The notes: a model not told the origin generated them from the letters alone. A stretch of 64,000 nucleotides of DNA from Bdellovibrio sp. ArHS (GCF_000786105.1 NZ_JTEV01000004.1:1-64000), one strand, 5' to 3'. Shown: positions 12,854-34,390, counted from the stretch's first letter. Numbers and translations: made by a program.

Positions 12854-13180
12854 ATGTCGGGGCCGAACGAGATCAAAGTCATTAAAAAGCGTGCTGAAGT
12901 AAAAAGCCTGGATTGTGGTCGAGTTCGAGAAGAAGGAAAGGAATTGTTAAGCACCCTCATTCGGGGTCTTGTTGATAATCCGGAATCCGTTGTCGTGTCG
13001 TATAGCTGCGGCGACAAAACGACTGTTTACAAAGTCGAATGCGACCAGAAATGTTTGGGACAAATTATCGGTGCGAAGGGGAAAAACATCAACGGAGTGC
13101 GGGCGGTGATCAGTGCCACCTTGGCGCGCAAAGGCATCCGGGCCGTCGTAGAAATTCCTTATTATTGTGTCGATGCTTAG
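12854..13180 (+). CDS. KH-domain RNA-binding protein (KhpA-like)
   Basis: 108 residues with one type II KH fold containing the nucleic-acid-binding GxxG loop in LGQIIGAKGKNINGVRAVI. Small KH proteins of the KhpA/YlqC group bind many RNAs, often with KhpB/Jag. Here it is monocistronic rather than in the usual rpsP-rimM context. The chain is longer at the N-terminus than KhpA (about 75-80 aa) and contains four to five Cys, which is unusual for the family. CTGGAG precedes the ATG. Confidence 0.8.
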   Translation: MSGPNEIKVIKKRAEVKSLDCGRVREEGKELLSTLIRGLVDNPESVVVSYSCGDKTTVYKVECDQKCLGQIIGAKGKNINGVRAVISATLARKGIRAVVEIPYYCVDA

Positions 13181-13183
13181 AAG

Positions 13184-13213
13184 GGATAAGCCCTGATTCC
13201 TCAAGGCTTATCC
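13184..13213. terminator. Hairpin between convergent KH and TonB-receptor genes
   Basis: 9-bp perfect stem GGATAAGCC/GGCTTATCC with a 12-nt loop. There is no clean T-run on either side, so termination is only probable. Confidence 0.5.
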
Positions 13214-13230
13214 AAGAAAAAGATGTGTTC

Positions 13231-15294
13231 TTAGAAAGCGGATCTTAGACCCACGTAGAAAGTTCGGCGCATACCAGGGAAAATTCCTTGAGGCGCGCGC
13301 GAAGAAATGTAAGTCGTATCAGCAAGATTTCTTCCAGAAAGTTCCAAAGTCAGATCTTGGGTTGCTTGATACTCTCCTGTTAGATGGAACAGACCGTAAG
13401 AAGGCAGAACGCCGCGCATACCATCCACTGATCCTTCAACCGTGTTTTCCGCATCAGCGTATTGTTCGCTCACGAAGCTGTACTGCAAGCTTGCCAGCCA
13501 GTCTTGGCGCTTGTAACCCACGGCCGTGTTGACCATGTATTCCGGTGCATAAGGCAGACGATTTCCTTCGCGATCCGCGCCACCGATAATGCGGGTGCTG
13601 TTAAATTTTGCGACCGGCATATAAGTGGCGTTTAAGTCGATAAACATCGAACGATGAATTTCGGGAATATAACGAACGGCCAACTCTAAACCTTGGTGCA
13701 AAGTTTTGCCTCCGTTCGTAAGGCCGGTGGCGGCACCACCGGATTCTGTCGCCTGAATCAACTGATTTGAGAAATCCAACTGAAACAAAGCCGCTTCAAG
13801 ATGAAGGTTGTCACTGGCAGAGCGATAACCCAGTTCGACATTCACACTGCGTTCTGCATCCAAATCCACAGCCTGTCCGTTGTTATCAATCGCATCTTGT
13901 ACACGGGGAGGAGAAAAGCCCTGATGAATACCGGCGAAAACGTATTGTTGTGCGGCTAATTGGTAAGTCGTACCCAAACCACCTAGATATTCGGTATTAC
14001 GATTTTCCGAACCCTGATTAAAGTCCGCCGAAGATTTTCGATAGATCATCCGGCTTTGACGATAGGACTCAACGCGCACGCCAGGGGTGATGGTCCATTT
14101 TTCAAAGTTAAGAGTGTTTTCCGCATACAAAGCTTGGGCATCTGCATAGCGCTTGTCATCAACGTCAATCACGCCGGAACGAGCTGTCGCTGTTGCGCCC
14201 TTGACCTCAACATTGCGCATGTCTTCCGTGTGCAGGCGAAGTCCGACTTGCAGATCGTTGCTGATTTCGCCAGCGTTCCAGTTAAGGAAATAGCGGGTAT
14301 CAATACCTGCGACGTCAAAAGTGCGGTTGCGGCCTTTGTTGGTGCCGGCCATCGTGATATCGCCAGAAGCATTTTTAGAAAAATCCTGTCTCCACCAGTC
14401 GCGCATGGTTTGATTGACATAGAATAGGGTTGAAAAGCGAGAGCGGCCATCGATCTGATAATCGTAAGTCAAATCCATCTCGTAGCGAGTGATGTACAAC
14501 ACATCGTTTTCCGCAGGATTTTGATAGGCATCCTGATCATAAAGCTTTTGCGTCAGGCCGAGATAGGTCAACTCCGCTTCGCTTTTGTAGTGGCTCAGTT
14601 TAATGCCGACATAACTCTTGTCCGATAAAGCACCGCCGTATTTCAACAAAACGTCACGGGTGTTAAAGTGCGTGTTATCGCGTGAGCCGTTTCCGTCTTT
14701 AGCAAAAAGATTTACGAGCAAGCCCGAGTCATTGCGTACGGAGCTTCCTTCAATCAGAAGTTCTTTGTAGTCACGACTTCCGCCAGTCAAAGTCACGGCG
14801 TTGCCGTGATCCTTCGTCGGATTTTTTGTGATGAAGTTGATGACCCCACCAATCGTGGAAGGACCAAATGCCAAAGAGCTGCTGCCCTTGCGGATGTCGA
14901 TGCGTTCCATGCGTTCGATGATCGGCGCATAATAAGCTGATGAATCAATATAAGGTCCCAAAGCCAATGGGGCGCCGTCTTCCAATAGCAAAACTTTGCG
15001 ACTGCCATCTGGGCTGAGTCCGCGCATCCCGATGTAAGCAATACCTTCAGCTTCAATCACATTGGCGCCGGCGGTCTTTTTGACGGCATCCTGAGCGCTG
15101 ACGGGGCGGGTTTCGCGCAGGTTTTCTTTATTCACCACGGTGATAGCACCGGGAGTTTTAAGAACCTCTTCCTGCTTGTCGCTAAGGACTTGAATGGTAG
15201 GAAGGTTGATGGTCTCGGTCTGTTTCTGTACGTTCTCTTGTGCCAAAGCTGTCGCAGCCATGGCCGTCAAAGAAAAAATCAAAAGGCTTTTCAT
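13231..15294 (-). CDS. TonB-dependent outer-membrane receptor (FecA-like)
   Basis: 687 residues from the ATG of MKSLLIFSLTAMAATALA; CAGGAGACAGGT precedes it, and the longer frame upstream is not supported. The plug domain (QVLSDKQEEVLKTPGAITVV, then RGLSPDGSRKVLLLEDG and GPSTIGGVINFITKNP) matches the siderophore/Fe-citrate receptor branch. A 22-strand barrel follows and ends with the aromatic FYVGLRSAF. Imports a chelated metal or small ligand using TonB energy. It is the last gene of a minus-strand group holding a redoxin and two YtkA/FixH-like proteins, so copper or another metal is as plausible as iron. Confidence 0.9.
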   Translation of the reverse strand: MKSLLIFSLTAMAATALAQENVQKQTETINLPTIQVLSDKQEEVLKTPGAITVVNKENLRETRPVSAQDAVKKTAGANVIEAEGIAYIGMRGLSPDGSRKVLLLEDGAPLALGPYIDSSAYYAPIIERMERIDIRKGSSSLAFGPSTIGGVINFITKNPTKDHGNAVTLTGGSRDYKELLIEGSSVRNDSGLLVNLFAKDGNGSRDNTHFNTRDVLLKYGGALSDKSYVGIKLSHYKSEAELTYLGLTQKLYDQDAYQNPAENDVLYITRYEMDLTYDYQIDGRSRFSTLFYVNQTMRDWWRQDFSKNASGDITMAGTNKGRNRTFDVAGIDTRYFLNWNAGEISNDLQVGLRLHTEDMRNVEVKGATATARSGVIDVDDKRYADAQALYAENTLNFEKWTITPGVRVESYRQSRMIYRKSSADFNQGSENRNTEYLGGLGTTYQLAAQQYVFAGIHQGFSPPRVQDAIDNNGQAVDLDAERSVNVELGYRSASDNLHLEAALFQLDFSNQLIQATESGGAATGLTNGGKTLHQGLELAVRYIPEIHRSMFIDLNATYMPVAKFNSTRIIGGADREGNRLPYAPEYMVNTAVGYKRQDWLASLQYSFVSEQYADAENTVEGSVDGMRGVLPSYGLFHLTGEYQATQDLTLELSGRNLADTTYISSRAPQGIFPGMRRTFYVGLRSAF

Positions 15295-15428
15295 ACCTGT
15301 CTCCTGTAGGAGGCGGCAAAATACCTCTGAAAACACACTGGGGCCAGTCGCGCAGGCAAAAGGGGCTCAAATAAGAACCAAATGAAAAAATGGGCGGGAA
15401 TATGATAGAAAAATAGGCAGTGTGAGAG

Positions 15429-15456
15429 CGTCGGATACCAGCGGTGATATCCGACG
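15429..15456. promoter_or_regulatory. Inverted repeat upstream of TonB receptor
   Basis: Arms CGTCGGATA/TATCCGACG (9 bp, perfect) with a 10-nt loop, in the 173-nt gap between the YtkA-like gene and the receptor start. It could attenuate or terminate the upstream operon, or be an operator. No T-run follows on the minus strand. Confidence 0.45.
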
Positions 15457-15467
15457 TCATAGGTCTT

Positions 15468-15893
15468 TTAAGGTTTCACGTCGACGTTGAACTCGGCTTT
15501 TTCGCCATTGACGAATAGACGAATCTGCCAACGTCCGGCCATCACGAAATAAGCTTCGGAGACATAGTAAGTGCCTTGATCCTGCTTCACCACTTTGACG
15601 GGGCCGGAGCCGTGACCGTGATGACCCATATTCATCCACAGGTCGACTTTCAAGTTCTGTGGGTCAATCATCACAGGTTCGCTTCCTGCCGAGTGGTGTT
15701 CATAAAACTTTACCAAAAATTGAGATTCTTCGCCATGGAAAGGACCTTTGGTAAATTCAATCGCAGCGCAAAGATCCGCCGTTTGAAAGTACACGGGGCA
15801 CGTCGCTTCGACATGGGCGCGCGCATTGGCGCTGTAAAGAAGTCCCGCGATGATGGCGCCGGCACCTAAAAGAATTGAAAAAAACAGTTTCAT
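15468..15893 (-). CDS. YtkA/FixH-like periplasmic protein
   Basis: 141 residues: signal anchor (1-27), then a beta-sandwich with a conserved MNMGHHGHGSGPVKV segment and VMAGRWQIRLFVNG near the end, the signature of the YtkA-like/FixH group (PF13115). The cluster of Met and His (M-N-M-G-H-H-G-H-G) looks like a copper-type site. Starts 10 nt after the barrel gene stops. FixH assists cbb3 oxidase assembly; YtkA-like proteins recur near copper genes. The same fold occurs again at 16800, so this operon holds two paralogues. Confidence 0.75.
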   Translation of the reverse strand: MKLFFSILLGAGAIIAGLLYSANARAHVEATCPVYFQTADLCAAIEFTKGPFHGEESQFLVKFYEHHSAGSEPVMIDPQNLKVDLWMNMGHHGHGSGPVKVVKQDQGTYYVSEAYFVMAGRWQIRLFVNGEKAEFNVDVKP

Positions 15894-15903
15894 ATGAGTT
15901 CTC

Positions 15904-16803
15904 CTATCGTGGCCACCGCTGTTGGTAGCTGATATTAAATGTTTTCGATAAACTTGAATTTACGGGAGCACCGATCCAGCTTTGATCCGCATAGCTGACA
16001 GTGACGGCGGATTCCAGATTGATCATGTAGCTGCCAGAAAAACCCAAAGTGAAGTTTTTCTGAGCGGTGCCATCGCTGGTTGTGGCGCCGCGAAGACGGA
16101 TGGCATCTTCGTGCAAGTACGTTAACGATGAGCCGATGCGATAGTCGCCGCGATTCCAACCCATTCCGATGGTTTGAGTTGTGCCCCATCCTGGTTGCAC
16201 GTCCACTTCGCCTCCGTAGGTTTCATTGGCGACAGTGCGCGGAAGCGAGTAATGAATTTCACCATTGAAGTTCATATCCCAGGTCGCCCAGGCCTTCATC
16301 AGGGCTATGCCGCCGCCGACTGAATAAAAACCGCGGCCGCGAATATCGGTCGCCGTGGAAATGGACGAATCATAAATGGAGGGACTGGTCGGCAGAGTGA
16401 TTTGTAAGAACGTCAACCCCTTAGGCTTCCAGCGGGAATAAGTTTTTTCCGGAAATGTTTCATGCCCCAGATACAGAGAAATATCGCCAACGCCTCCCGA
16501 ACTTGCAGAGTTGTCGGCAGATTTCATCATCACGGGCAGAGCGAATCCAGCTTGAAAACTGTCAGAGACCAGAGCCGCTCCTTCCAATTTCAAAGTCTGC
16601 GCTAAATTGCCATCGTGACGACGCAACCATTTTCCGCTCGCCAGAACGTCGTCGCTGACCTGTGAGTAGGAATAGGTGCTGGTGATTTGTGCTTTATCGT
16701 CAGCCAAAATCAGTGCGGGAAAAGAAAAGCTACCGCCACAACAGCTTGCCGCGAAAGAAAGGGAGCCGCTTAGATGAATAAAGATAAAAAGAAGAAGTCT
16801 CAT
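15904..16803 (-). CDS. Outer-membrane beta-barrel protein of metal-type operon
   Basis: 299 residues. Start is set at the ATG overlapping the TGA of the upstream gene (ATGA); the longer frame has no support. A signal peptide is followed at once by SCCGGSFSFPALI, an unusual Cys-Cys-Gly-Gly N-terminus of the mature protein that could ligate a metal or carry a modification. The rest is amphipathic beta strands (SYSQVSDDVL, FNGEIHYSL, TIGMGWNRGDYRIGSSLTYL) ending in an aromatic-rich strand, typical of a 12-14-strand barrel. Family not identified. Position suggests a porin-like partner of the YtkA-like proteins. Confidence 0.7.
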   Translation of the reverse strand: MRLLLFIFIHLSGSLSFAASCCGGSFSFPALILADDKAQITSTYSYSQVSDDVLASGKWLRRHDGNLAQTLKLEGAALVSDSFQAGFALPVMMKSADNSASSGGVGDISLYLGHETFPEKTYSRWKPKGLTFLQITLPTSPSIYDSSISTATDIRGRGFYSVGGGIALMKAWATWDMNFNGEIHYSLPRTVANETYGGEVDVQPGWGTTQTIGMGWNRGDYRIGSSLTYLHEDAIRLRGATTSDGTAQKNFTLGFSGSYMINLESAVTVSYADQSWIGAPVNSSLSKTFNISYQQRWPR

Positions 16804-17219
16804 GGTACTATCATCGAGGCATAGGCAGAGTCGATCACGACTCCGTTGTTTTTCAAAGTAAAGCGAATATCCCAATCACCCGGCATTAGAAAATAGACAT
16901 CGGTGATGCGGTATTGAGTCGGATTGATTTTTTCAATTTTAACAGGAATCGAGCCATGCCCCATCGAGGGCATCCACAAGCTGACAGCCAACTCATTGAA
17001 TTGATCTGAAGGGGCGGACAAGTTTAAAATAAAGGCGTTGGCCTGTTCGCTGTTCGGTGTATTTTCCCAACTAATTTTAGCAAGGATGCGAACTTTCGAA
17101 AAATACGCACCATCGGCCATTGGTTTGTTTTGCACCTGCTGGTCGTCATCAGAGACATAGTCAGGGTTGGCACACGCGACGAGCCCCAAAACACTAAAAA
17201 GAAGCCAAAGAGCTTTCAT
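16800..17219 (-). CDS. YtkA/FixH-like lipoprotein
   Basis: 139 residues with lipobox GLVAC (Cys about 16). The C-terminal beta domain has LWMPSMGHGSIPVKIE and FLMPGDWDIRFTLKNN, the same positions as the MGHHGHGSGPV and VMAGRWQIRLF segments of the paralogue at 15468. Its start codon abuts the redoxin stop and its stop overlaps the next ATG, so the three genes are tightly coupled. Probably a periplasm-facing, outer- or inner-membrane-anchored metal or assembly factor; substrate not shown. Confidence 0.75.
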   Translation of the reverse strand: MKALWLLFSVLGLVACANPDYVSDDDQQVQNKPMADGAYFSKVRILAKISWENTPNSEQANAFILNLSAPSDQFNELAVSLWMPSMGHGSIPVKIEKINPTQYRITDVYFLMPGDWDIRFTLKNNGVVIDSAYASMIVP

Positions 17220-17765
17220 CTAGTCGTCCTCTCTTGGAATGTAACATCCCAAAGCGCGGCCTTCTTTATGGCGAGGCTCTTTGCCGGCGTGAAGATCTTC
17301 CAAAACTTCCTTCAAGAAAAATTTCTTGGCACTGGGGCCGACGTGGCTGTCGGTCACGCCCCCGTGATACACCAGTTCGCCTTTTTTATTAAAGACGAAG
17401 GCATGCGGTGTTTTCAGGGCCCCCAGTTCATTCGCTAACTTTGATTTTCTATCTTGAATCACAGGGAAGGGAAGTTGAGCTTCGGCAAAATGTTGTTGCG
17501 TCTGTTCTGGGCTTTCATCACTGTTGGCGTGGATGCCGGCAAACTGGACATTTTTAAATTCGGCCGAGTAAGACTTTAGCAAAGACTCGTGACTGGCAGA
17601 GCAGGGACACTTGGCAGAAACAAAAACCACGACGGTCGCTTCTTTGTCTGTTGTCGCAATTTTGATTTCTTTTTGTGAAATGACATCTGTTCCTTCCAGC
17701 GGGGGGACTGCGAAAGAAAGTGATGCCCAAAGGGTCAGCAAGAGGAGTGTCCAGAGTTTCTGCAT
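17220..17765 (-). CDS. Secreted thioredoxin-fold redoxin
   Basis: 181 residues with a signal peptide (1-19) and a redoxin/AhpC-TSA fold: VVVFVSAKCPCSASHESLL carries Cys53 and Cys55 in a C-P-C motif in place of the usual CxxC; TPHAFVFNKKGELVYHGG has the cis-Pro. Conserved C-terminal LGCYIPREDD holds a third Cys. C-P-C redoxins of this type occur in many Bdellovibrio and Planctomycetes genomes. First gene of the YtkA/barrel/TonB group, divergent from the PF10136 gene. Likely a thiol reductant or metallochaperone (Sco-like by role), which is inference. Confidence 0.8.
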   Translation of the reverse strand: MQKLWTLLLLTLWASLSFAVPPLEGTDVISQKEIKIATTDKEATVVVFVSAKCPCSASHESLLKSYSAEFKNVQFAGIHANSDESPEQTQQHFAEAQLPFPVIQDRKSKLANELGALKTPHAFVFNKKGELVYHGGVTDSHVGPSAKKFFLKEVLEDLHAGKEPRHKEGRALGCYIPREDD

Positions 17766-17898
17766 AGGCCCCTTTCTAACACGGACGGTCTATTAGGCAA
17801 ACGCCACCAAATGTTGCGTAAAACCATCGCACGGCGCGACGCATTCAAAATGGGGCTCTTTCGTACCTTTTTACAACGGATTTCAGTAAACTTTCCGT

Positions 17899-19986
17899 AT
17901 GTTTACAAAACTTAAGGCCCTCCGAGCACGTTTCATTCAATACAAGCGAAGTGGAAAAGTCCACAGCGACCTCGATGTTTTGTTATCCGGCGCTAAAGAA
18001 AACCGCCAACTGGAAGATAAGCTGCAGTGGCTGGTCAAAGTGATGCAATGGATTCGTTATGAAGGATCTGTCGACTCTCATCTGGAAAAAGAGACGGGAC
18101 GTCTGCCGGTCGCCCGTTTGCGGTTTCTATTGATGGTTTTGGACAGAAACCCAGGGTGGAAAAAGGACGTCGCACATATATTAAGAACTGTCGTTCATAA
18201 AGTCAGCGGTATGGAACTTTACACAGACACCGGTCTGCCGAAAGAGCTGGGCCTATGGAGTGAGTTTTCAGATCGTCTGATGATGAAACTACTGCCGACA
18301 CCCCCTTTGGATCATGAACTGGGATATTTGTTCTGGGCGCTTTTCCCGGACAAAGATGATCCTCTGTGGTTGGCGTCGATTGATAATGTCACTTTTGATA
18401 AATTGGTTGAGCTTTTTCAATATGAAGTCAGTCCCGAAGAGCAGGACTGGAATCGTCTGCAAAGTGATTTGGAAGACGCCCTGATTTATCTGGTGATTCA
18501 GGTTCGTGCGATCGGTCTGTCTTCGGCGATTCGCACCCGACTTGATAAGACGTCTTTTCGTGATTCGGCCTTTTTCGCCATGATGCGCGCGCATGAAGAA
18601 TTTATGAATGCCTATCTGGCCGGAGATCGCAATCAGGCGTTTGAAAAGGCCTCGCGATTTCGCATGATCGTCTGGGAGTGCCGACGGGAACTTGTTCAGG
18701 TTCATAAACATCTGGATGAGTACGGTGTTAGCATCTCGCTGGTTTTTCAGATTGCCAAGCTGCGCACATATCTGCAACGGATTGACAGCCTGTTGGAAAT
18801 TCTTCTGACAGAACGTTTGGACAGTCGTAAGGTGACGAGTTTCTTTTCTAAACTCGTGGAAGAAAATCAAGATCTACGCAGTATTAAGTCCTTGTTCTCG
18901 CAGAATATCGCCTTATTCGCGCGCAAAGTTGTAGAGCGAGCGGCGGAAACCGGCGAACACTACATCACCCGCACGAAAGAACAATATCGCCACATGCTTC
19001 AGGCGGCCGGGGGCGGCGGGGCTGTGACGGCGATCACAGTGTATCTGAAAGTGGGAATTCTGGCGTTGGGGCTGGGTGGCTTCCTTGAAGGTTTTTTTGC
19101 TTCGGTGAACTACGCTTTGAGTTTCGTTCTGATTCATCTGGCGGGTTTCACCTTGGGAACCAAGCAACCGGCCATGACGGCTCCCGCACTTGCGGAAAAA
19201 ATGGAAGATGTCGATACCGAAAAAGGGATGTCTGAGCTCGTGACTGAGATCACGCATCTGATTCGTTCGCAGGTGGCCTCCATTTTAGGCAACGTGATGT
19301 TTGTCATTCCCACGGTGATCCTGATTGATACGGCGTTCTTTCTTCTGGTGGGACACAATATTATGTCGATGGAAAAGGCGGTGTCGGCCTATAAATCTGT
19401 CGACATCTTAGGGCCTGCCGTTATCTATGCGGCCTTTACCGGAATTCTTTTATATTCTTCAAGTCTAATTGCGGGCTGGGGTGATAATTGGTTTGCGCTG
19501 AATTCTTTGCGAAAAACCTTGGCGCGCAGTCCAAGCTTACGGGCGATCTTTGGTAAACGAGGCGCGCGCAATATCGCAGTCTTTTTGGAAAACAATATTT
19601 CCGGTCTTCTGGGGAATATCTCTTTAGGATTTATGTTGGGGATGGTGCCTGAAATTATGAAGTTCTTAAGCGTTCCTCTGGATGTGCGACACGTGACCTT
19701 ATCGTCGGGAACTTTGGCAGGTGCGCTTCCCGTATTGGGTCTCGACTTTCTGAAGACCTGGGAATTTTGGCGTGCGGTCATCGGAATCTTTTTTATCGGG
19801 GCCTTCAACGTGTTAGTCAGTTTCGGCATGGCCTTCTATACCGCGATCAAAGCGCGTGGCGTGAACGTCACTGAGCGCCGAGCGATTCGTAAAGCCATCG
19901 CGAAAAGATTTTTCGCTAGTCCCCTCAGTTTCTTTATTCCTGTGGGCGCGACTGTTAAATCTTCGTCGAACGGAAGCGGGCATTGA
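17899..19986 (+). CDS. PF10136 'SpecificRecomb' family integral membrane protein
   Basis: 695 residues. The first about 380 are soluble and helical (DLDVLLSGAKENRQLEDKLQWL, RMIVWECRRELVQVHKHLDE); the rest holds about six to seven membrane segments, including VGILALGLGGFLEGFFASVN. This is the family annotated as site-specific recombinase (Neisseria Gcr), although the topology and lack of any recombinase catalytic set argue for a membrane function. Its TGA overlaps the TTG start of a GT2 glycosyltransferase, suggesting an envelope role. No DNA-mobility features surround it. Confidence 0.78.
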   Translation: MFTKLKALRARFIQYKRSGKVHSDLDVLLSGAKENRQLEDKLQWLVKVMQWIRYEGSVDSHLEKETGRLPVARLRFLLMVLDRNPGWKKDVAHILRTVVHKVSGMELYTDTGLPKELGLWSEFSDRLMMKLLPTPPLDHELGYLFWALFPDKDDPLWLASIDNVTFDKLVELFQYEVSPEEQDWNRLQSDLEDALIYLVIQVRAIGLSSAIRTRLDKTSFRDSAFFAMMRAHEEFMNAYLAGDRNQAFEKASRFRMIVWECRRELVQVHKHLDEYGVSISLVFQIAKLRTYLQRIDSLLEILLTERLDSRKVTSFFSKLVEENQDLRSIKSLFSQNIALFARKVVERAAETGEHYITRTKEQYRHMLQAAGGGGAVTAITVYLKVGILALGLGGFLEGFFASVNYALSFVLIHLAGFTLGTKQPAMTAPALAEKMEDVDTEKGMSELVTEITHLIRSQVASILGNVMFVIPTVILIDTAFFLLVGHNIMSMEKAVSAYKSVDILGPAVIYAAFTGILLYSSSLIAGWGDNWFALNSLRKTLARSPSLRAIFGKRGARNIAVFLENNISGLLGNISLGFMLGMVPEIMKFLSVPLDVRHVTLSSGTLAGALPVLGLDFLKTWEFWRAVIGIFFIGAFNVLVSFGMAFYTAIKARGVNVTERRAIRKAIAKRFFASPLSFFIPVGATVKSSSNGSGH

Positions 19987-28094: not shown

Positions 28095-28871
28095 TTAAAA
28101 GTCTTTGTATTTAAATCTGACCCAGGCGGCCGAGACTGGCAGTACAATCCACAATGAAAGTGCCAGACCGCATAGAGTCTGAATGAATCCACTGTCCCAG
28201 GCTCGCTGTAAAAGCAGTCCGGCATAACCGATCCATAGCGAATTTTCGTCGTGTGCCAGGTTCTGGAATTTCAAAAGAGTCAGAGGGTTTAAGGCGCTGA
28301 GACCTAAGATAATTTTCTCTAAGGGATAAGACGCATAATTGATGATAATCCACAGACTGACACTGTCCAAAACAAGGCAGAATAAAAGAACGAGTCCCGC
28401 TGCAACGGCCATGGCTTTCAGTCGATCTTGAATTTGAATAGCCAAAAGAAATCCGAGACCGGTAAAAATAATCTCGACGACGGTTTGGCTGACCAGAAGG
28501 CGCAAGTTTTCTTCAGGGGATAAAGAAGCCCCCATTTGCAAAAGCAAGGAGGCATCCGTAAATAGAGCAAGGGAAAGGCCGAAGGCCAGAAAGCGGGCGA
28601 TGAAAACGGTTTTTCTTTGAATAGGTTGGGTCAGTATCAAAGAGATGAATTCTGAGTTGTTTTGCCAAGAAAGGGTCGCAAAAAGCAAAAGCCCGATTGA
28701 ATGAAAGAATAAGATTGAGTTCATGGTGCTGACAAAAAGCTGTTGAGGCTCGTTGCTAAAGTAACGGAGGGCAAAAAGAATAAGATTGAAGGCCGCTAAA
28801 TAAATCCACAGCCAACGGCTTTGAGCGAGGGCGAGGGATTCATATTTAAAAAGAGTCTTAAATTTTCGCAT
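28095..28871 (-). CDS. nosY: NosY-like ABC-2 permease
   Basis: 258 residues with six predicted membrane segments (LWIYLAAFNLILFALRYF, SIGLLLFATLSWQ, GLVLLFCLVLDSVSLWIIINY). Start at the ATG of MRKFKTLFKYESLAL, overlapping the end of nosF by 14 nt; the longer frame is not supported. With NosF it forms the NosFY transporter that, in Pseudomonas stutzeri, hands energy or a conformational change to NosD so that copper moves from NosL to NosZ. Last nos gene of the cluster. Confidence 0.85.
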   Translation of the reverse strand: MRKFKTLFKYESLALAQSRWLWIYLAAFNLILFALRYFSNEPQQLFVSTMNSILFFHSIGLLLFATLSWQNNSEFISLILTQPIQRKTVFIARFLAFGLSLALFTDASLLLQMGASLSPEENLRLLVSQTVVEIIFTGLGFLLAIQIQDRLKAMAVAAGLVLLFCLVLDSVSLWIIINYASYPLEKIILGLSALNPLTLLKFQNLAHDENSLWIGYAGLLLQRAWDSGFIQTLCGLALSLWIVLPVSAAWVRFKYKDF

Positions 28872-29574
28872 GAGACACCTCATTGCTTTTAGAAAGAACA
28901 TGGACGATCGAACTTTCAAAGCCCGTTACGCCAGTTTGACTTTCGAGGTCACTGACCAGACCGCTGTAGGCCCATTGGCCATCAAGAAGAAAGTGGACCT
29001 TGTCAGAAAGTTGTTCGATTTCACTGGTAATGTGCGAGATTAAAAGAACGGTGGTCTTGTGTGCCCTGGCCATAAGAATTTTTTTAAAATGGGCGGCAGC
29101 CACGGGATCTAAGCCCACTGTAGGCTCGTCTAGTATGATCAAAGGGACATCAAACATTAAAGTCGCAATCAGAAAACACTTTTGAAAGTTTCCGCCGGAA
29201 AGAGCCTTTAAAGGCTTTGTCAGTTCGCTGGAAAAATCAAATTCACGGATCAGCAAGTCTTTGAAAACGGCTTTTTCTCCGCGCAGATCTTCGATGAAGG
29301 TGAAAAGTTCTTGCGGCGAGGTGTTGCGCGGAGCTTCGGGGTGTTGGGGTAACCAGGAGACTTTTTCTCGGCAATTTTTCAACGGCACGCCGTCTAAAAG
29401 AACGTCGCCTGCGTCGATATGGACCAGTCCCAGCATGGACTTGATCAAAGTCGTTTTGCCGCAACCGTTCGGTCCCAGAATACCATGAATCAATCCCTCT
29501 TCGAACTTGCCGTTCAGACGATCCAGGACTTTCTTTTTGCCATAAGACTTACTAAGACTGCGAATTTCTATCAT
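28858..29574 (-). CDS. nosF: NosF-like ABC ATPase
   Basis: 238 residues with Walker A GPNGCGKTT, signature LSGGNFQKC, Walker B LIILDEPTVGLDP and switch His (LISHI). The ATG overlaps the TGA of nosD by the ATGA pattern, and the gene overlaps nosY. NosF powers the NosDFY copper-site maturation complex. Upstream extension of the frame into nosD is not used. Confidence 0.93.
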   Translation of the reverse strand: MIEIRSLSKSYGKKKVLDRLNGKFEEGLIHGILGPNGCGKTTLIKSMLGLVHIDAGDVLLDGVPLKNCREKVSWLPQHPEAPRNTSPQELFTFIEDLRGEKAVFKDLLIREFDFSSELTKPLKALSGGNFQKCFLIATLMFDVPLIILDEPTVGLDPVAAAHFKKILMARAHKTTVLLISHITSEIEQLSDKVHFLLDGQWAYSGLVSDLESQTGVTGFESSIVHVLSKSNEVSHAKI

Positions 29575-30821
29575 TTGTTCCCCCGGGATAAATGCGGCAT
29601 GAGAGGCTCTGGATCGCGTAGACTGACTGGAGAAATGGCCGGAAACATCTGCTCTGCCCAATCCAGGAATTTCAAAATCGGCGTGCCCACAAGAAGAATG
29701 CTGAGATTGTATTTCTCAAGTAAATATGAGGAAAAACTGGTGGGTTGGTAGGGAAGATCCACAATTCCATCCTGATTCAAATCGACATTCTGGTGGTGAG
29801 CCCAATAATTTCCTTTAAAGGTATTTAAGTTCGTTTGCGAGTTTGTCGCGACTTCCAGAGTATTATCCAGGAAGGCGTTGCCCTGAAACAGATTCGAATC
29901 GCACGAGCTGAGCAGGCGAATGGCCCAGCCGTTTTTATCAAAACGATTCGAATGGATATTGTTTCTGTTGGAACCTTCCATAAAAATGGCCACGGTATTC
30001 CTGAGGAATTCGTTGCCGACGATCTCAGAGTCCGAGATGTCCTTCAAAAGAAGACCGAACGAGGCAGACCCTTTGTTGTCCGCATATTCATTGTTCAGCA
30101 TTTTGACTCTTTTAGAGTACATCACGGCGACACCAGCGTCGTTACCGCTGAACGTGTTGTTACGAAAGGTGTTGTCATTAGAAAACATAAAGTGCAGTCC
30201 GTAGCGTTGATTTCCCCGGATTGTATTGTCGAAGATTTCTCCGGCTTCGGTGAACTCCAGATAGATGCCATCGCGATGACCGTGCACGGTGTTTTTTGTC
30301 AGCCGCATGTGTGTCGTTTTCCAAAGGTGAATTCCATCACCTAAAAGACCTGCCGGTACGGAATTGGTGGTGATATTATTTCCGCTGACGCTGCAGGCGC
30401 TGGAATTGGCAATCATGATTCCATATTGTGAGTCCACGATCTGGTTGTCTGCGATCAGACAGCCCGAGGTGTTAGAAACTTTGATAGAGGCGTAGTCATG
30501 ATAGGTGCTTTTGCCAGAGCCGACAGTTTTAAATCCTTTGACTGTGGTGTTGGGCGCCTGAATGAGAATTGTATCCCCCTCACCCAGGTGGAAAATTGTG
30601 GCACCAGTTTCGCCGATAAGGCTGATGCTTTTTGTGATCGTCAGGGTTTCTTCTTTGTATTCTCCGGCCTTGACCAGAATTAGATCGCCGTCTTGGGCCT
30701 TGTGTAGTGCAGACCGAATCGTTTGGAGGTCACAATGAGCGCACACTTCCAACGTTCGCGAAAATGCGGAAGTGCCGAAGAAAGAAAGCAGGCATATTGA
30801 AAGAAGGGCGAAAAAGTTCAT
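29571..30821 (-). CDS. nosD: NosD periplasmic copper-maturation protein
   Basis: 416 residues: signal peptide (1-21) and a right-handed parallel beta-helix of CASH/NosD type, with repeated N-x-x-x-G/N-N rungs such as NTVHGHRDGIYLEF and YGLHFMFSNDNTFRNN. In denitrifiers NosD docks on NosFY and receives copper from NosL for the CuZ site of NosZ. It overlaps nosL by 4 nt and nosF by 4 nt. Length fits the family (about 400-440 aa). Confidence 0.94.
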   Translation of the reverse strand: MNFFALLSICLLSFFGTSAFSRTLEVCAHCDLQTIRSALHKAQDGDLILVKAGEYKEETLTITKSISLIGETGATIFHLGEGDTILIQAPNTTVKGFKTVGSGKSTYHDYASIKVSNTSGCLIADNQIVDSQYGIMIANSSACSVSGNNITTNSVPAGLLGDGIHLWKTTHMRLTKNTVHGHRDGIYLEFTEAGEIFDNTIRGNQRYGLHFMFSNDNTFRNNTFSGNDAGVAVMYSKRVKMLNNEYADNKGSASFGLLLKDISDSEIVGNEFLRNTVAIFMEGSNRNNIHSNRFDKNGWAIRLLSSCDSNLFQGNAFLDNTLEVATNSQTNLNTFKGNYWAHHQNVDLNQDGIVDLPYQPTSFSSYLLEKYNLSILLVGTPILKFLDWAEQMFPAISPVSLRDPEPLMPHLSRGNK

Positions 30822-31219
30822 CGCTCCGCCTCATTTAAATTTATTTTTGGTAAGTTCATTTCCTTTTTGTGAGCTTGAATATTCGTACCCATGGGGCCCC
30901 GCATGCTTTCGTCTCTATAAAGCTGGATGCGGTCCTGACGGGTGAGTTCGGAACTTGCAAAGTCAACGAAATAGACCTCTTTAATATGATCCTTTTCAGA
31001 GTGATGGGTGTGGGCCAGACACTCCACAGAGTCGAACTTCAAAGTGCGACCTTCGTTGGTTAATAAAGCTCCACCGTATCTTTTATCCGTGATCTGCATT
31101 TTGCAATGATCGCAATAGTCGTGCCCATAATGAATCGGTTCGACTTTTTTTTCCGTGCAACCCCACAATAGCAGGGTTGATAGAATAAGGATGCTAAGAA
31201 GGTGCAGCGATTGTTTCAT
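30818..31219 (-). CDS. nosL: NosL copper-chaperone lipoprotein
   Basis: 133 residues with lipobox LLWGC (Cys about 21). Mature part begins with HYGHDYCDHCKMQITDKRYGG: the C-x-x-C-x-M motif is the Cu(I) site of NosL. A second SVECLAHTHH segment could add ligands. Anchored in the outer membrane, it delivers Cu+ to NosD. In this cluster nosL precedes nosD, unlike the Pseudomonas order where it follows nosY. Confidence 0.94.
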   Translation of the reverse strand: MKQSLHLLSILILSTLLLWGCTEKKVEPIHYGHDYCDHCKMQITDKRYGGALLTNEGRTLKFDSVECLAHTHHSEKDHIKEVYFVDFASSELTRQDRIQLYRDESMRGPMGTNIQAHKKEMNLPKINLNEAER

Positions 31220-31223
31220 AAAT

Positions 31224-31793
31224 TTATCCCCAGAGCTCTTTGGCTCTTAAATAGAGAACATAAAGAACCGCTAAAAAGGAGACCATCATCAGCCACCCGC
31301 CGATTGCGGGATAGGAATAGATGGAAATATTCAGCAGAGTCTCTGAACCGAAAAGAGGCGGTTGATAAGACATTCCAGGCACCTTGATCGGAGCATCCGG
31401 ACTGAGGTTGTGGCCATAGTCGTATTCCCATTTCCAAAAGTCATAAAGCGCGAAGAGCGAAAAGGCTGCGAAACTCAGGAAATAAAGACCGATACTGACA
31501 AGATGAGGCCATGCCAAGGCCACGGCACCCACAACCAGAATGCCCGCGATGAGCTTGGGAAAATAAACCAGCTCGGGAATGTCTGATGGCGTGATCGCTT
31601 TCATTCCGACATAATGGTTCAGAATGTTAATATTATTAAGATCACCTGAAATCTTATTCAGCCAGATTTGCAGATTCAATCCTTCCGGATATTGGGGCGC
31701 AAAAATAGCGATATCCCAAAGCGGCAAAATCAGTGTTGAAGCCAAAAAAATGAGACTCACCAGAAGAAGAATTCGAATTATTTTTTTATTCAT
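31224..31793 (-). CDS. NosB-like membrane protein
   Basis: 189 residues from the ATG of MNKKIIRILLLV; the ORF's earlier Met has no ribosome site. Four membrane segments surround a periplasmic loop with FAPQYPEGLNLQIWLNKI and NINILNHYVGM. A membrane protein of this type (NosB) follows nosZ in clade II clusters of Wolinella, Anaeromyxobacter and Bacteroidetes; its role is unknown but it is used as a clade marker. It lies 52 nt after nosZ and 4 nt before nosL. Confidence 0.82.
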   Translation of the reverse strand: MNKKIIRILLLVSLIFLASTLILPLWDIAIFAPQYPEGLNLQIWLNKISGDLNNINILNHYVGMKAITPSDIPELVYFPKLIAGILVVGAVALAWPHLVSIGLYFLSFAAFSLFALYDFWKWEYDYGHNLSPDAPIKVPGMSYQPPLFGSETLLNISIYSYPAIGGWLMMVSFLAVLYVLYLRAKELWG

Positions 31794-31845
31794 AGATACC
31801 TCTAAATTCAAAAGGGCGACTTGCATCGCCCCTCTCTGATCTCCG

Positions 31846-33813
31846 TTATTTTCCTTGATTGAATTTTAGCGGAGTTGACGAGCCCGGCGCGGAAACTCGG
31901 ATATAACCCTGCATTTCCTGGTGCAGCGCTGAACAGAAGTCAGTACAGTAGAATGGATAGATGCCTGGTTTTGAAGGCGTCCATTTGAACGTGCTAGTTT
32001 CACCTGGCATCAAAAGAAGCTCTGAGGTGTTGGCACCGATGATAGAGAATCCGTGCGCAATATCCCAGTCCTGCTCAAGATTCGTCACGTGGAAGTAGAC
32101 GGTGTCGCCCACTTTAATGCCCTCGATGTTGTCAGGCATGAAGTGAGAGCGAATGGCTGTTCCATAAACGTGCACCACATTGCCTTCGCGAACCACGCGA
32201 GCCTCTTTTTCGCCCCGAGCTACGAACGGATGCTTGTTGTCTTCCAATGTGTAGATCTTTTTCACCTTGTCTTTAATTAGGCTGGCTTCGAATCCCACGG
32301 CATAGTGCGGTTCACCGACGGTCGGGAAGTCCAAAAGCATTTCCATTTTATCGCCCGAAATATCGATCAACTGCGCGGATTGCGGCAGCTCTGGTCCCAC
32401 GGGCAGATAGCGGTCTTTGGTGATCTTATTCATCGCCAAAAGGTATTTACCCCAAGGTTGTTTTGAGCCACTGCCTGGAATCATGATGTGACCCAAAGAA
32501 TAGTAGGTTGGGATGCGATCCACAACTTCCCAAGTTCCGAGTTTCCATTTCACGACTTCAGAGCTGACGAAGCAGGATGTATAAGCATTGCCTTTACCGT
32601 CAAATTCAGTGTGCAAAGGACCTAAACAGGGTTTTTTAACTTCTCCGGCCAAAACAGATTCGTAGTCCAAAACCTTCACGCCGTCATAGTCGCCGCTGAA
32701 TTTTTTGTCTTCAATCGCCTTGACGATCTTGTTGAAGTCATAAGCGGTGATCTGAGCCGCCAGTTTGCCTCCGGCAATGATGTATTGACCGGATGGATCG
32801 ACGTCAGCACCATGAGGCGATTTTGCGACCGGGGCGTAGTATAGAACGCCGTCACAGTCCTTAATATCCAACATTTTGACTTTTTCGATGGTCGTTGAAG
32901 TGGCGGTATGAGTGGCTTCATTCAACTCATTGTGAACGTGCTGGCCGTCAACGGTTTTCGCTTTGCCGGCGGCGACACATTCTTCCGCTTTTTTCCAGTT
33001 CACGATTGCCAACAAGTCTTTGTCATTCTTCGAAGCGTTGATTTCAATAAGAGTCGATGCTTTTTCGGAATTGTAAGACGTCAAGAAACAGTATCCGTGA
33101 GACATGCCTTTACCACAGGAAGCCAAGTCATAGTCGATACCTGGAACCAAAAGCTGGAAGGCCACTTCCATTTTTTCCTCTTTACCGAATTTAATAAAGG
33201 AAATGGTTCCTTTTACTTCCTCTTTCATTTTATCCAACGCCACGTCTTTATTGGGAAGTGGAATCGAGAAACGTGTCGAGGCAATAAGGTATTCGGTGTT
33301 TTCCGTAAGGTACGGAGATCCGTGATTTCCGCCAGAGTTGGGGATCTCGATAATCTCAGTCGTCTTGAATGTCTTTAAATCAATTTTGGCAATACGAGGA
33401 GTGTTGTTGGCATTGATATAGACGTAACGACCGTCCACTTTTCCGTCCGTTAAAGACAATTGCGGATGGTGCGAATCATCCCACGGGACGAAGCCGTGAC
33501 TGGTGTTCAACATTTTTTTTGTTTCTTCGGTAAATCCGTAGCCGTTTTCAGGATTCACTGAATACACGGGAATCACTCTAAGAAGTCGACCTGAAGGAAG
33601 GCCGTAGACTGCGAGCTGACCGCTGAAACCTCCAGATAGAAATGAGTAAAATTCGTCGTGCTTACCAGGTGCTACATAAACTTTTTCTGCTGCGTTTTTA
33701 CTGACCGATGCGCCGCCCGCGCTGGAGGGTTTCTTCGGCGTACAGGCAAACATTGATGCCGCAAAGCCGATGCCCACTGCGACAGTGACCATAGTTTTGT
33801 TATTTATTTTCAT
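31846..33813 (-). CDS. nosZ: Nitrous-oxide reductase, clade II type
   Basis: 655 residues from the ATG after AAAGGAACTGCC. The leader MVTVAVGIGFAASMFAC is a Sec/lipoprotein signal, not a twin-arginine one; the long upstream frame is spurious. The beta-propeller CuZ ligands are visible (DSHHPQ, GNHGSPY, SPHGADVDPSG, GPLHTEFDGKGNAY, GEPHYAVG) and the C-terminal cupredoxin has the CuA set (AHGF and CTDFCSALHQEM). All metal motifs are intact. Reduces N2O to N2 in the periplasm. Sec export and a nosB neighbour both place it in clade II. Confidence 0.97.
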   Translation of the reverse strand: MKINNKTMVTVAVGIGFAASMFACTPKKPSSAGGASVSKNAAEKVYVAPGKHDEFYSFLSGGFSGQLAVYGLPSGRLLRVIPVYSVNPENGYGFTEETKKMLNTSHGFVPWDDSHHPQLSLTDGKVDGRYVYINANNTPRIAKIDLKTFKTTEIIEIPNSGGNHGSPYLTENTEYLIASTRFSIPLPNKDVALDKMKEEVKGTISFIKFGKEEKMEVAFQLLVPGIDYDLASCGKGMSHGYCFLTSYNSEKASTLIEINASKNDKDLLAIVNWKKAEECVAAGKAKTVDGQHVHNELNEATHTATSTTIEKVKMLDIKDCDGVLYYAPVAKSPHGADVDPSGQYIIAGGKLAAQITAYDFNKIVKAIEDKKFSGDYDGVKVLDYESVLAGEVKKPCLGPLHTEFDGKGNAYTSCFVSSEVVKWKLGTWEVVDRIPTYYSLGHIMIPGSGSKQPWGKYLLAMNKITKDRYLPVGPELPQSAQLIDISGDKMEMLLDFPTVGEPHYAVGFEASLIKDKVKKIYTLEDNKHPFVARGEKEARVVREGNVVHVYGTAIRSHFMPDNIEGIKVGDTVYFHVTNLEQDWDIAHGFSIIGANTSELLLMPGETSTFKWTPSKPGIYPFYCTDFCSALHQEMQGYIRVSAPGSSTPLKFNQGK

Positions 33814-33864
33814 GGCAGTTCCTTTCATTTTTTTTGACGTTGCCATTGGTGTTTGTGCCATAAC

Positions 33865-33878
33865 ATGACTTACATCAC
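33865..33878. promoter_or_regulatory. CRP/FNR-family-like palindrome between nosZ and cytochrome gene
   Basis: ATGAC-N4-ATCAC: TGA-N6-TCA, the core spacing of FNR/DNR/NNR-type sites (TTGAT-N4-ATCAA), with outer positions less ideal. It is in the 118-nt divergent region, about 52 nt from nosZ and 54 nt from the cytochrome start. Denitrification genes are commonly controlled by this family. Confidence 0.45.
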
Positions 33879-33931
33879 TTATCTTAATTCGTTGTTCGGA
33901 TATTATGTCCTTCGTCATAAGGAGATAGAAT

Positions 33932-34390
33932 ATGCAGAAAATTGTCTTAGCGTTTCTTGTTATCAATATGTTTTCAGTTGTGAGTTGTACGAAGAAAGAA
34001 GAAGTGAGTAGTCCCGATGTTTTCTCTGCGGCTGCAGCACCTACGACTGGAGGTGGAGACATTGGAGTGGGTCCTATTACTTCTCTGGTTCTTGAGTCAG
34101 AAATTAAAGCCGACTTGGTTAAACATGGTACGGAAGTTTTTTCGGCTAAATGCGCTGCTTGCCATAAGATGGGAGAAAGATATGTGGGGCCGGATCTGAA
34201 AGGTGTCACGGAACGAAGAAAGCCCGAGTGGATCATGAATATGATCTTGAATCCTCAAGAGATGACACAAAAGGATCCAATCGCTCAGGAACTTCTGGGT
34301 GAGTACATGACACAAATGACTTTTCAGAATGTCACTCAGGATGAAACCAGAGCGATTCTTGAGTACTTCCGCAGTATCGATAAAAAATAG
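33932..34390 (+). CDS. c-type cytochrome lipoprotein
   Basis: 152 residues. Lipobox FSVVSC (Cys about 19), a linker rich in Ala/Gly/Pro, then a class I cytochrome c domain with CAACHKM heme site, YVGPDLKGV and distal Met in EYMTQMTF. AAGGAGATAGAAT precedes the ATG. It is divergent from nosZ across 118 nt with a CRP/FNR-like site. Clade II systems use c-type cytochromes to feed NosZ; this one is the natural candidate donor, by inference from position. Confidence 0.9.
   Translation: MQKIVLAFLVINMFSVVSCTKKEEVSSPDVFSAAAAPTTGGGDIGVGPITSLVLESEIKADLVKHGTEVFSAKCAACHKMGERYVGPDLKGVTERRKPEWIMNMILNPQEMTQKDPIAQELLGEYMTQMTFQNVTQDETRAILEYFRSIDKK

Follow-up and report, generated by a model that had tools for sequence, protein, structure and literature searches.

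CtaK, an extracytoplasmic YtkA-domain lipoprotein of Bacillus subtilis, has been implicated together with Sco in CuA assembly (PMC13344008, PMC9145763). Helicobacter pylori CrdA binds copper, with a proposed Cu(I) site in its Met-rich loop (PMC9182242), and acts in copper export with CrdB–CzcBA. The SCO1/SenC and PCuAC relay pairs a periplasmic thioredoxin-fold protein with a Met/His copper chaperone, and the Campylobacter jejuni genes cj0908–0911 bring in further proteins whose Cys motifs are Trx-like (PMC8267372); these systems are without an outer-membrane barrel. At the outer membrane, the TonB copper receptors NosA and OprC combine a plug and a barrel, and the COG4313 channels and FapF are 12-stranded barrels whose proposed or known cargoes are hydrophobic molecules or amyloid. 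In COG4313 channels, a segment before strand 1 lies within the lumen and occludes it (PMC4493636).

A gene set in Bdellovibrio sp. ArHS joins parts of these known kinds in a new way. It lies in a window of 64,000 nucleotides (the whole stretch of DNA analyzed) from a Bdellovibrio-like genome of 3.54 Mb in 47 contigs, and comprises a redoxin, two YtkA proteins, and an outer-membrane barrel (Table 1). The combination, the Cys–Cys barrel, and the regulatory palindrome upstream are undescribed in the open-access papers searched, in keeping with the preliminary description, which knew of no named system with this exact set. We read the redoxin, YtkA1, and the barrel, with or without YtkA2, as a copper-handling module that supports the assembly of respiratory copper enzymes under a RegB/RegA-like system, and we put the probability of this reading at roughly 55%.

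All five open reading frames described at window positions 13231–17765 are present, and all are on the − strand. The redoxin and YtkA1 genes abut with a 0-bp gap (17220/17219), YtkA1 and the barrel share a 4-bp ATGA overlap, and 10 bp separate the barrel from YtkA2; the gap between YtkA2 and the receptor is 173 bp. For the barrel and the receptor, the longest frames begin too far 5′, and the likely starts are those at 16803 and 15294. The hairpin 3′ of YtkA2 is predicted at −19.1 kcal/mol (z −3.8), with no U-run directly behind it. No sigma-70 consensus promoter was found 5′ of the redoxin. The redoxin, YtkA1, barrel, and YtkA2 genes form a tight unit, and the receptor is separate. The preliminary description had proposed an operon of five co-directional genes, some of them overlapping or abutting; the shared strand and the close junctions are as it said, and the grouping holds for four genes and fails for the TonB receptor. 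The motifs it pointed to (C-P-C in the redoxin, an MGHG-type Met/His motif, and Cys-Cys-Gly-Gly) are all found in the translations. Divergent from the cassette is a gene for a membrane protein of the PF10136 'site-specific recombinase' family (window 17899–19986, +), and its place beside the cassette is conserved across much of the genus.

Table 1. Features of the locus, in window coordinates
Feature	Position	Strand	Remarks
Candidate operator GCAACATTTGGTGGC	17803..17817	−	37 bp 5′ of the redoxin start codon
Redoxin (RED), periplasmic	17220..17765	−	Pfam Redoxin/AhpC-TSA match; C53-P-C55-S..H59, C174
YtkA1, OM-type lipoprotein	16800..17219	−	Pfam YtkA just below cut-off; lipid Cys16
BAR, 12-stranded outer-membrane barrel	15904..16803	−	Structure model; N-terminal Cys21-Cys22-Gly-Gly
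YtkA2, periplasmic	15468..15893	−	Pfam YtkA above cut-off; LWMNMGHHGHG...YFVM
Strong hairpin, possible transcript end	15426..15458	−	Between YtkA2 and TonB receptor
FecA-like TonB receptor, neighbor outside the module	13231..15294	−	Segment missing from nearest relatives

Several observations set the receptor apart. A segment of 2.29 kb (13180–15467) is missing from the corresponding junction of the two closest relatives (loci L072 and L073), where the YtkA2 stop and that of a convergent KH gene touch. Because homology between the window and these loci stops precisely with the stop codons of YtkA2 (15468) and the KH gene (13179), the receptor sits in a segment that both relatives lack. None of the other cassette loci examined has the receptor either. 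Orthologues 80% identical to it are found about 400 kb from the cassettes in genome G007 and in genome G004, which we take to be B. bacteriovorus HD100; the HD100 copy is flanked by oxidoreductase-like and decarboxylase-like genes, named by eye from sequence. The receptor is the sole one of its kind in the ArHS genome at E<1e-5. Its best-scoring named family is FecA (E 1.8e-63), with a score below the NCBIfam FecA equivalog cut-off (214.7 bits versus 1100). Its sequence contains no Cys and no HxM and, having no Cys, is without the copper motif CxxxM-HxM that OprC is reported to have. It thus shares the TonB receptor plug and barrel with NosA and OprC but is Cys-free and FecA-like. The receptor is a later neighbor in this genome, outside the copper-handling gene set. 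A role for it as the outer-membrane step is not supported, given its absence at other loci, its unlinked orthologue in HD100, its lack of Cys, and its FecA-like sequence.

The preliminary description had read the five genes as a TonB-driven copper acquisition and delivery route feeding NosZ. Gene adjacency in this genome favors such a route, as does a nos cluster (nosZ, nosD, ABC ATPase, and permease; window 28095–34236, −) 14 kb away on the same strand. Against it stand the receptor findings just given and the hairpin before the receptor, and nosZ is rare (found in 9 of 140 genomes across the order) and not associated with the cassette (p 0.51, uncorrected for relatedness). A receptor orthologue living apart from the other genes had been named at the outset as an observation that would count against the route, and this is the arrangement in HD100. 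The five-gene route is therefore very improbable. What survives of it is a metal system, most likely for copper, with conserved Met and His residues; the receptor and the dedicated link to NosZ are not supported.

Of 141 genomes from the order, 77 have a detected barrel, and a search of the phylum with a 27-row profile found it in 176 of 369 genomes; outside the phylum it had no plasmid match. At nearly all loci the redoxin is followed by a YtkA lipoprotein and then the barrel, and many loci have an extra YtkA gene downstream, upstream, or divergent. Of the 562 matches in a redoxin scan of named genomes, the best 80 include 77 loci of Bdellovibrionota type; a few of these records carry other labels (Deltaproteobacteria and one Streptomyces bin), which their gene content contradicts. 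Within those best 80 matches, at least two YtkA genes occur at 36 loci, and of the 75 loci with room for it, 73 retain the order redoxin–YtkA–barrel, which puts the association of the first four genes far beyond chance. The preliminary description proposed looking for the same gene set in other Bdellovibrionota, and this part of the set is there, without the receptor. The loci from the order's genomes and those from the redoxin scan partly overlap.

Variation around this core takes several forms. Redoxins without YtkA or barrel partners occur at L195 and L209. In one Bdellovibrio genome (G016; L016 / L084:7072–7971), the barrel is broken by an in-frame TGA, and the redoxin and YtkA1 are intact. 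At L035, L036, L040, L091, and L094, which are five loci of the first set (two of them from one genome), a divergent YtkA gene is followed by SCO1 and PCuAC. In one Bdellovibrio clade (L081–L086), genes for an AcrB-family RND pump and a trypsin-like protease lie downstream, in the place of YtkA2. A ZrgA-family zinc protein gene is near the cassette in one genus (L048:4179–4691, L049, and L052). An unnamed propeller-like protein of 322 aa, DUF5074-like (L048:5174–6142), adjoins the cassette in other genomes, and two further unnamed propeller-like proteins (L227:1517–2497 and L231:417–1454) have the exact palindrome in their promoters; these proteins are possible further members of a copper and respiration set.

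The case for copper comes from the YtkA proteins. YtkA1 falls just below the cut-off of PF13115 (25.3 versus 25.9 bits) and YtkA2 above it (35.9 bits); neither matches PCuAC (PF04314), whose motif is H(M)X10MX21HXM. The lipid Cys16 of YtkA1 (lipobox LVAC16) is invariant in its family, as are M83, H88, F110, M112, G114, and W116 (59 sequences), and M86 is conserved in 57 of the 59; YtkA2 carries an ordinary signal peptide. YtkA1 has an SMGHGS motif, and its M83, M86, H88, and M112 are candidate copper ligands as judged from sequence. In YtkA2, which has the motif MGHHGHG, M87, M89, H92, H94, and M118 are conserved, so that the Met/His ligand conservation sought by the preliminary description is borne out in both proteins. 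A Cys pair at YtkA1 residues 36 and 46 is present in 46 of 59 sequences, and both positions are lost together in the window's species group, which suggests a disulfide.

An AlphaFold2 model of YtkA1 (pLDDT 90) is closest to H. pylori CrdA (9ll2, 9ll4), with Z 11.3 over 98 aligned residues, rmsd 3.0, and 18% identity; the next match is at 9.1. A YtkA1 profile also finds CrdA by sequence (E 0.0033), with the Met-rich site of CrdA, at an equal position, aligned with M83, M86, and M112. CrdA differs in having no His and in serving export. CtaK resembles YtkA1 as an extracytoplasmic YtkA-domain lipoprotein, and YtkA here is linked to SCO1; the present system differs from CtaK in its Gram-negative setting, OM-type lipobox (+2 Ala), redoxin and barrel partners, and two paralogues. 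The invariant M83, H88, and M112 and near-invariant M86, the fold match to CrdA, and the YtkA–SCO1–PCuAC neighbors together support copper, which is quite probably the metal handled. Another cargo, zinc above all, would fit the ZrgA-family gene that a few genomes of a single genus have near the cassette. It is improbable, since Met-rich sites favor Cu(I) over Zn(II) in coordination chemistry, and the linkage to SCO1 and PCuAC is wider than that to ZrgA.

The barrel has no family match (none in Pfam at E<1 and none in PHROGs). Its model (pLDDT 92) has 12 strands and matches FapF (Z 26.6) and a COG4313 channel (4rl8; Z 25.4 over 252 residues, rmsd 2.5, 12% identity), with the next match at 18.6. 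Unlike these proteins, to which no family-level sequence match was found, it carries an N-terminal Cys–Cys (ASCCGG, Cys21 and Cys22), and the pair is invariant in 61 of 61 sequences. In the model, the stretch with the Cys pair matches the COG4313 lumen segment; residues 15–25, the pair included, are a low-confidence part of the model, so we infer the position in the lumen. Inward transport through the barrel is a proposal that we regard as possible, if doubtful.

The redoxin has a thioredoxin fold with CPC at residues 53–55. Among 65 homologues, C53, P54, S56, H59, T119, P120, and C174 are invariant, and C55 is 98% conserved. The nearest solved structures (2ywi, 2cvb, and 3u5r) belong to the CxxCP...GCSI thioredoxin family, which contains its closest relatives. 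The redoxin keeps the C-terminal GCxI, but the first Cys of CxxC has become S50 and a new Cys appears two positions past C53. Relatives outside the phylum (L217–L219), among the best 80 of 562 matches, have CxxC and neither YtkA nor a barrel, and a scan of viral sequences gave no match. The redoxin is also distinct from SCO1/SenC, with no PF02630 match and CPC instead of the CxxxC...H motif. The module thus differs from the SCO1/SenC and PCuAC relay in both partners, as YtkA is not PCuAC. The three near-invariant Cys of the redoxin would suit a thiol-redox role, in which the redoxin and the Cys–Cys barrel maintain the cysteines of c-type cytochromes or oxidase subunits, the YtkA proteins are structural partners, and copper is incidental; the palindrome shared with ResB-like cytochrome c maturation genes (below) would suit it as well. 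We think this quite unlikely, because soft-metal ligand sets are kept in two separate YtkA proteins and the loci are linked to SCO1–PCuAC.

In the ArHS genome, CcoNO, CcoG, and a heavy-metal ATPase are encoded in a cbb3 operon, and there are three SCO1-family matches. Neither PCuAC nor COX2 was detected in this genome; most relatives have a COX2, and its absence here could be an assembly gap. Co-occurrence of the cassette with COX2 shows no association (p 0.43, uncorrected for relatedness), by which a CuA-specific role is rejected. With no association for COX2 or NosZ and no COX2 in this genome, no single cuproenzyme is pinned. PCuAC is enriched with the cassette (24/31 versus 53/110, uncorrected for relatedness), and since it is enriched and not depleted, YtkA as a replacement for PCuAC is rejected. 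A role in respiratory enzyme assembly has somewhat better than even odds.

Regulation points toward respiration as well. A palindrome, GCAACA-N3-TGTTGC, is found at loci of several families, mostly 34–39 bp 5′ of the redoxin start. With up to two mismatches allowed, it occurs in 26 of 113 redoxin upstream regions; the reversed motif gives 0 and a shuffled one 1. Exact sites number 31 in 66 family genomes, versus 5 for the reversed control, and many fall within ORFs. Those in intergenic regions precede SCO1–PCuAC, heavy-metal P-type ATPase, cydA, and ResB-like genes, as well as genes for a RegB-like kinase, for a protein that contains a cbb3-type cytochrome c domain, and (twice) for an unnamed protein. 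SCO1–PCuAC of HD100 has a one-mismatch site. ArHS has two-mismatch sites where the RegB-like gene begins and, at the cbb3 locus, 135 bp ahead of the ATPase; each is weak alone. The RegR box is GNGRCRTTNNGNCGC (PMC5506826), and the window site fits it at 9 of 11 fixed positions, a candidate site by sequence match.

RegB/RegA-like pairs lie near the redoxin at seven loci in two classes. The pairs, each a kinase and a 170-aa regulator, are at L194, L168, and L185 (Bdellovibrionia) and at L197, L201, L203, and L175 (Bacteriovorax-type or unclassified), with the L203 pair assigned by membership of the same cluster as scanned loci. ArHS also has such a pair, with its RegA-like regulator at C10:21994–22494; the regulator of HD100 is at C1:3279496–3279999. 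The reference family includes PrrB/PrrA and ActS/ActR. Because the best family matches, at 110–143 bits, are below the NCBI curated cut-offs of 350/250 (NF033792/NF033791), the proteins are named no further than RegB/RegA-like; the GGXXNPF quinone motif of RegB is absent in both kinases read. Full-length RegA-like regulators and the cassette tend to occur together (35/39 versus 42/102), and they do so outside the genus (14/16 versus 42/101, p 8e-4), all genome counts being uncorrected for relatedness. The palindrome may be bound by a RegA-like protein.

These sites bear on the main rival, copper detoxification, in which YtkA1 and YtkA2, like CrdA, would sequester surplus Cu(I) in the periplasm, the barrel would be an exit for copper, and the redox dependence of expression would reflect that of Cu(I) toxicity. 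The best fold relative, CrdA, is a copper resistance determinant, and one clade has the RND pump gene downstream of its cassette. That gene, however, is convergent and confined to the clade, the SCO1–PCuAC neighbors are assembly factors, and the palindrome is common to respiratory genes (SCO1, cydA, and ResB) and not to efflux genes. We judge detoxification unlikely.

In the preferred reading, a copper-handling module for respiratory enzymes, the COG4313-like barrel would let copper across the outer membrane, with its N-terminal Cys–Cys tail sitting where relatives insert a lumen plug. The lipoprotein YtkA1 (through M83, M86, H88, and M112) and the soluble YtkA2 would take the copper as Cu(I) and hand it to SCO1/PCuAC-type chaperones or straight to an oxidase, the served enzymes being cbb3 and aa3-type oxidases. 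The CPC redoxin may keep barrel and chaperone thiols and copper reduced or may itself carry copper, and a RegB/RegA-like redox two-component system would control the module. We infer both the part played by the redoxin and the order of copper transfer. A bolder and rather unlikely version makes the barrel a dedicated copper port, redox-controlled and independent of TonB, with an invariant Cys–Cys plug; the CPC redoxin would open or load the port, which would be unloaded onto YtkA1. If true, the port would be a previously undescribed TonB-independent entry of copper for respiratory enzymes. How copper crosses the outer membrane toward such enzymes is an open question in most Gram-negative bacteria. 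Here a phylum-wide set joins a specific barrel, a thiol protein, CtaK/CrdA-like copper binders, and an apparent redox regulator, and it offers a concrete system to study in HD100, a culturable predator.
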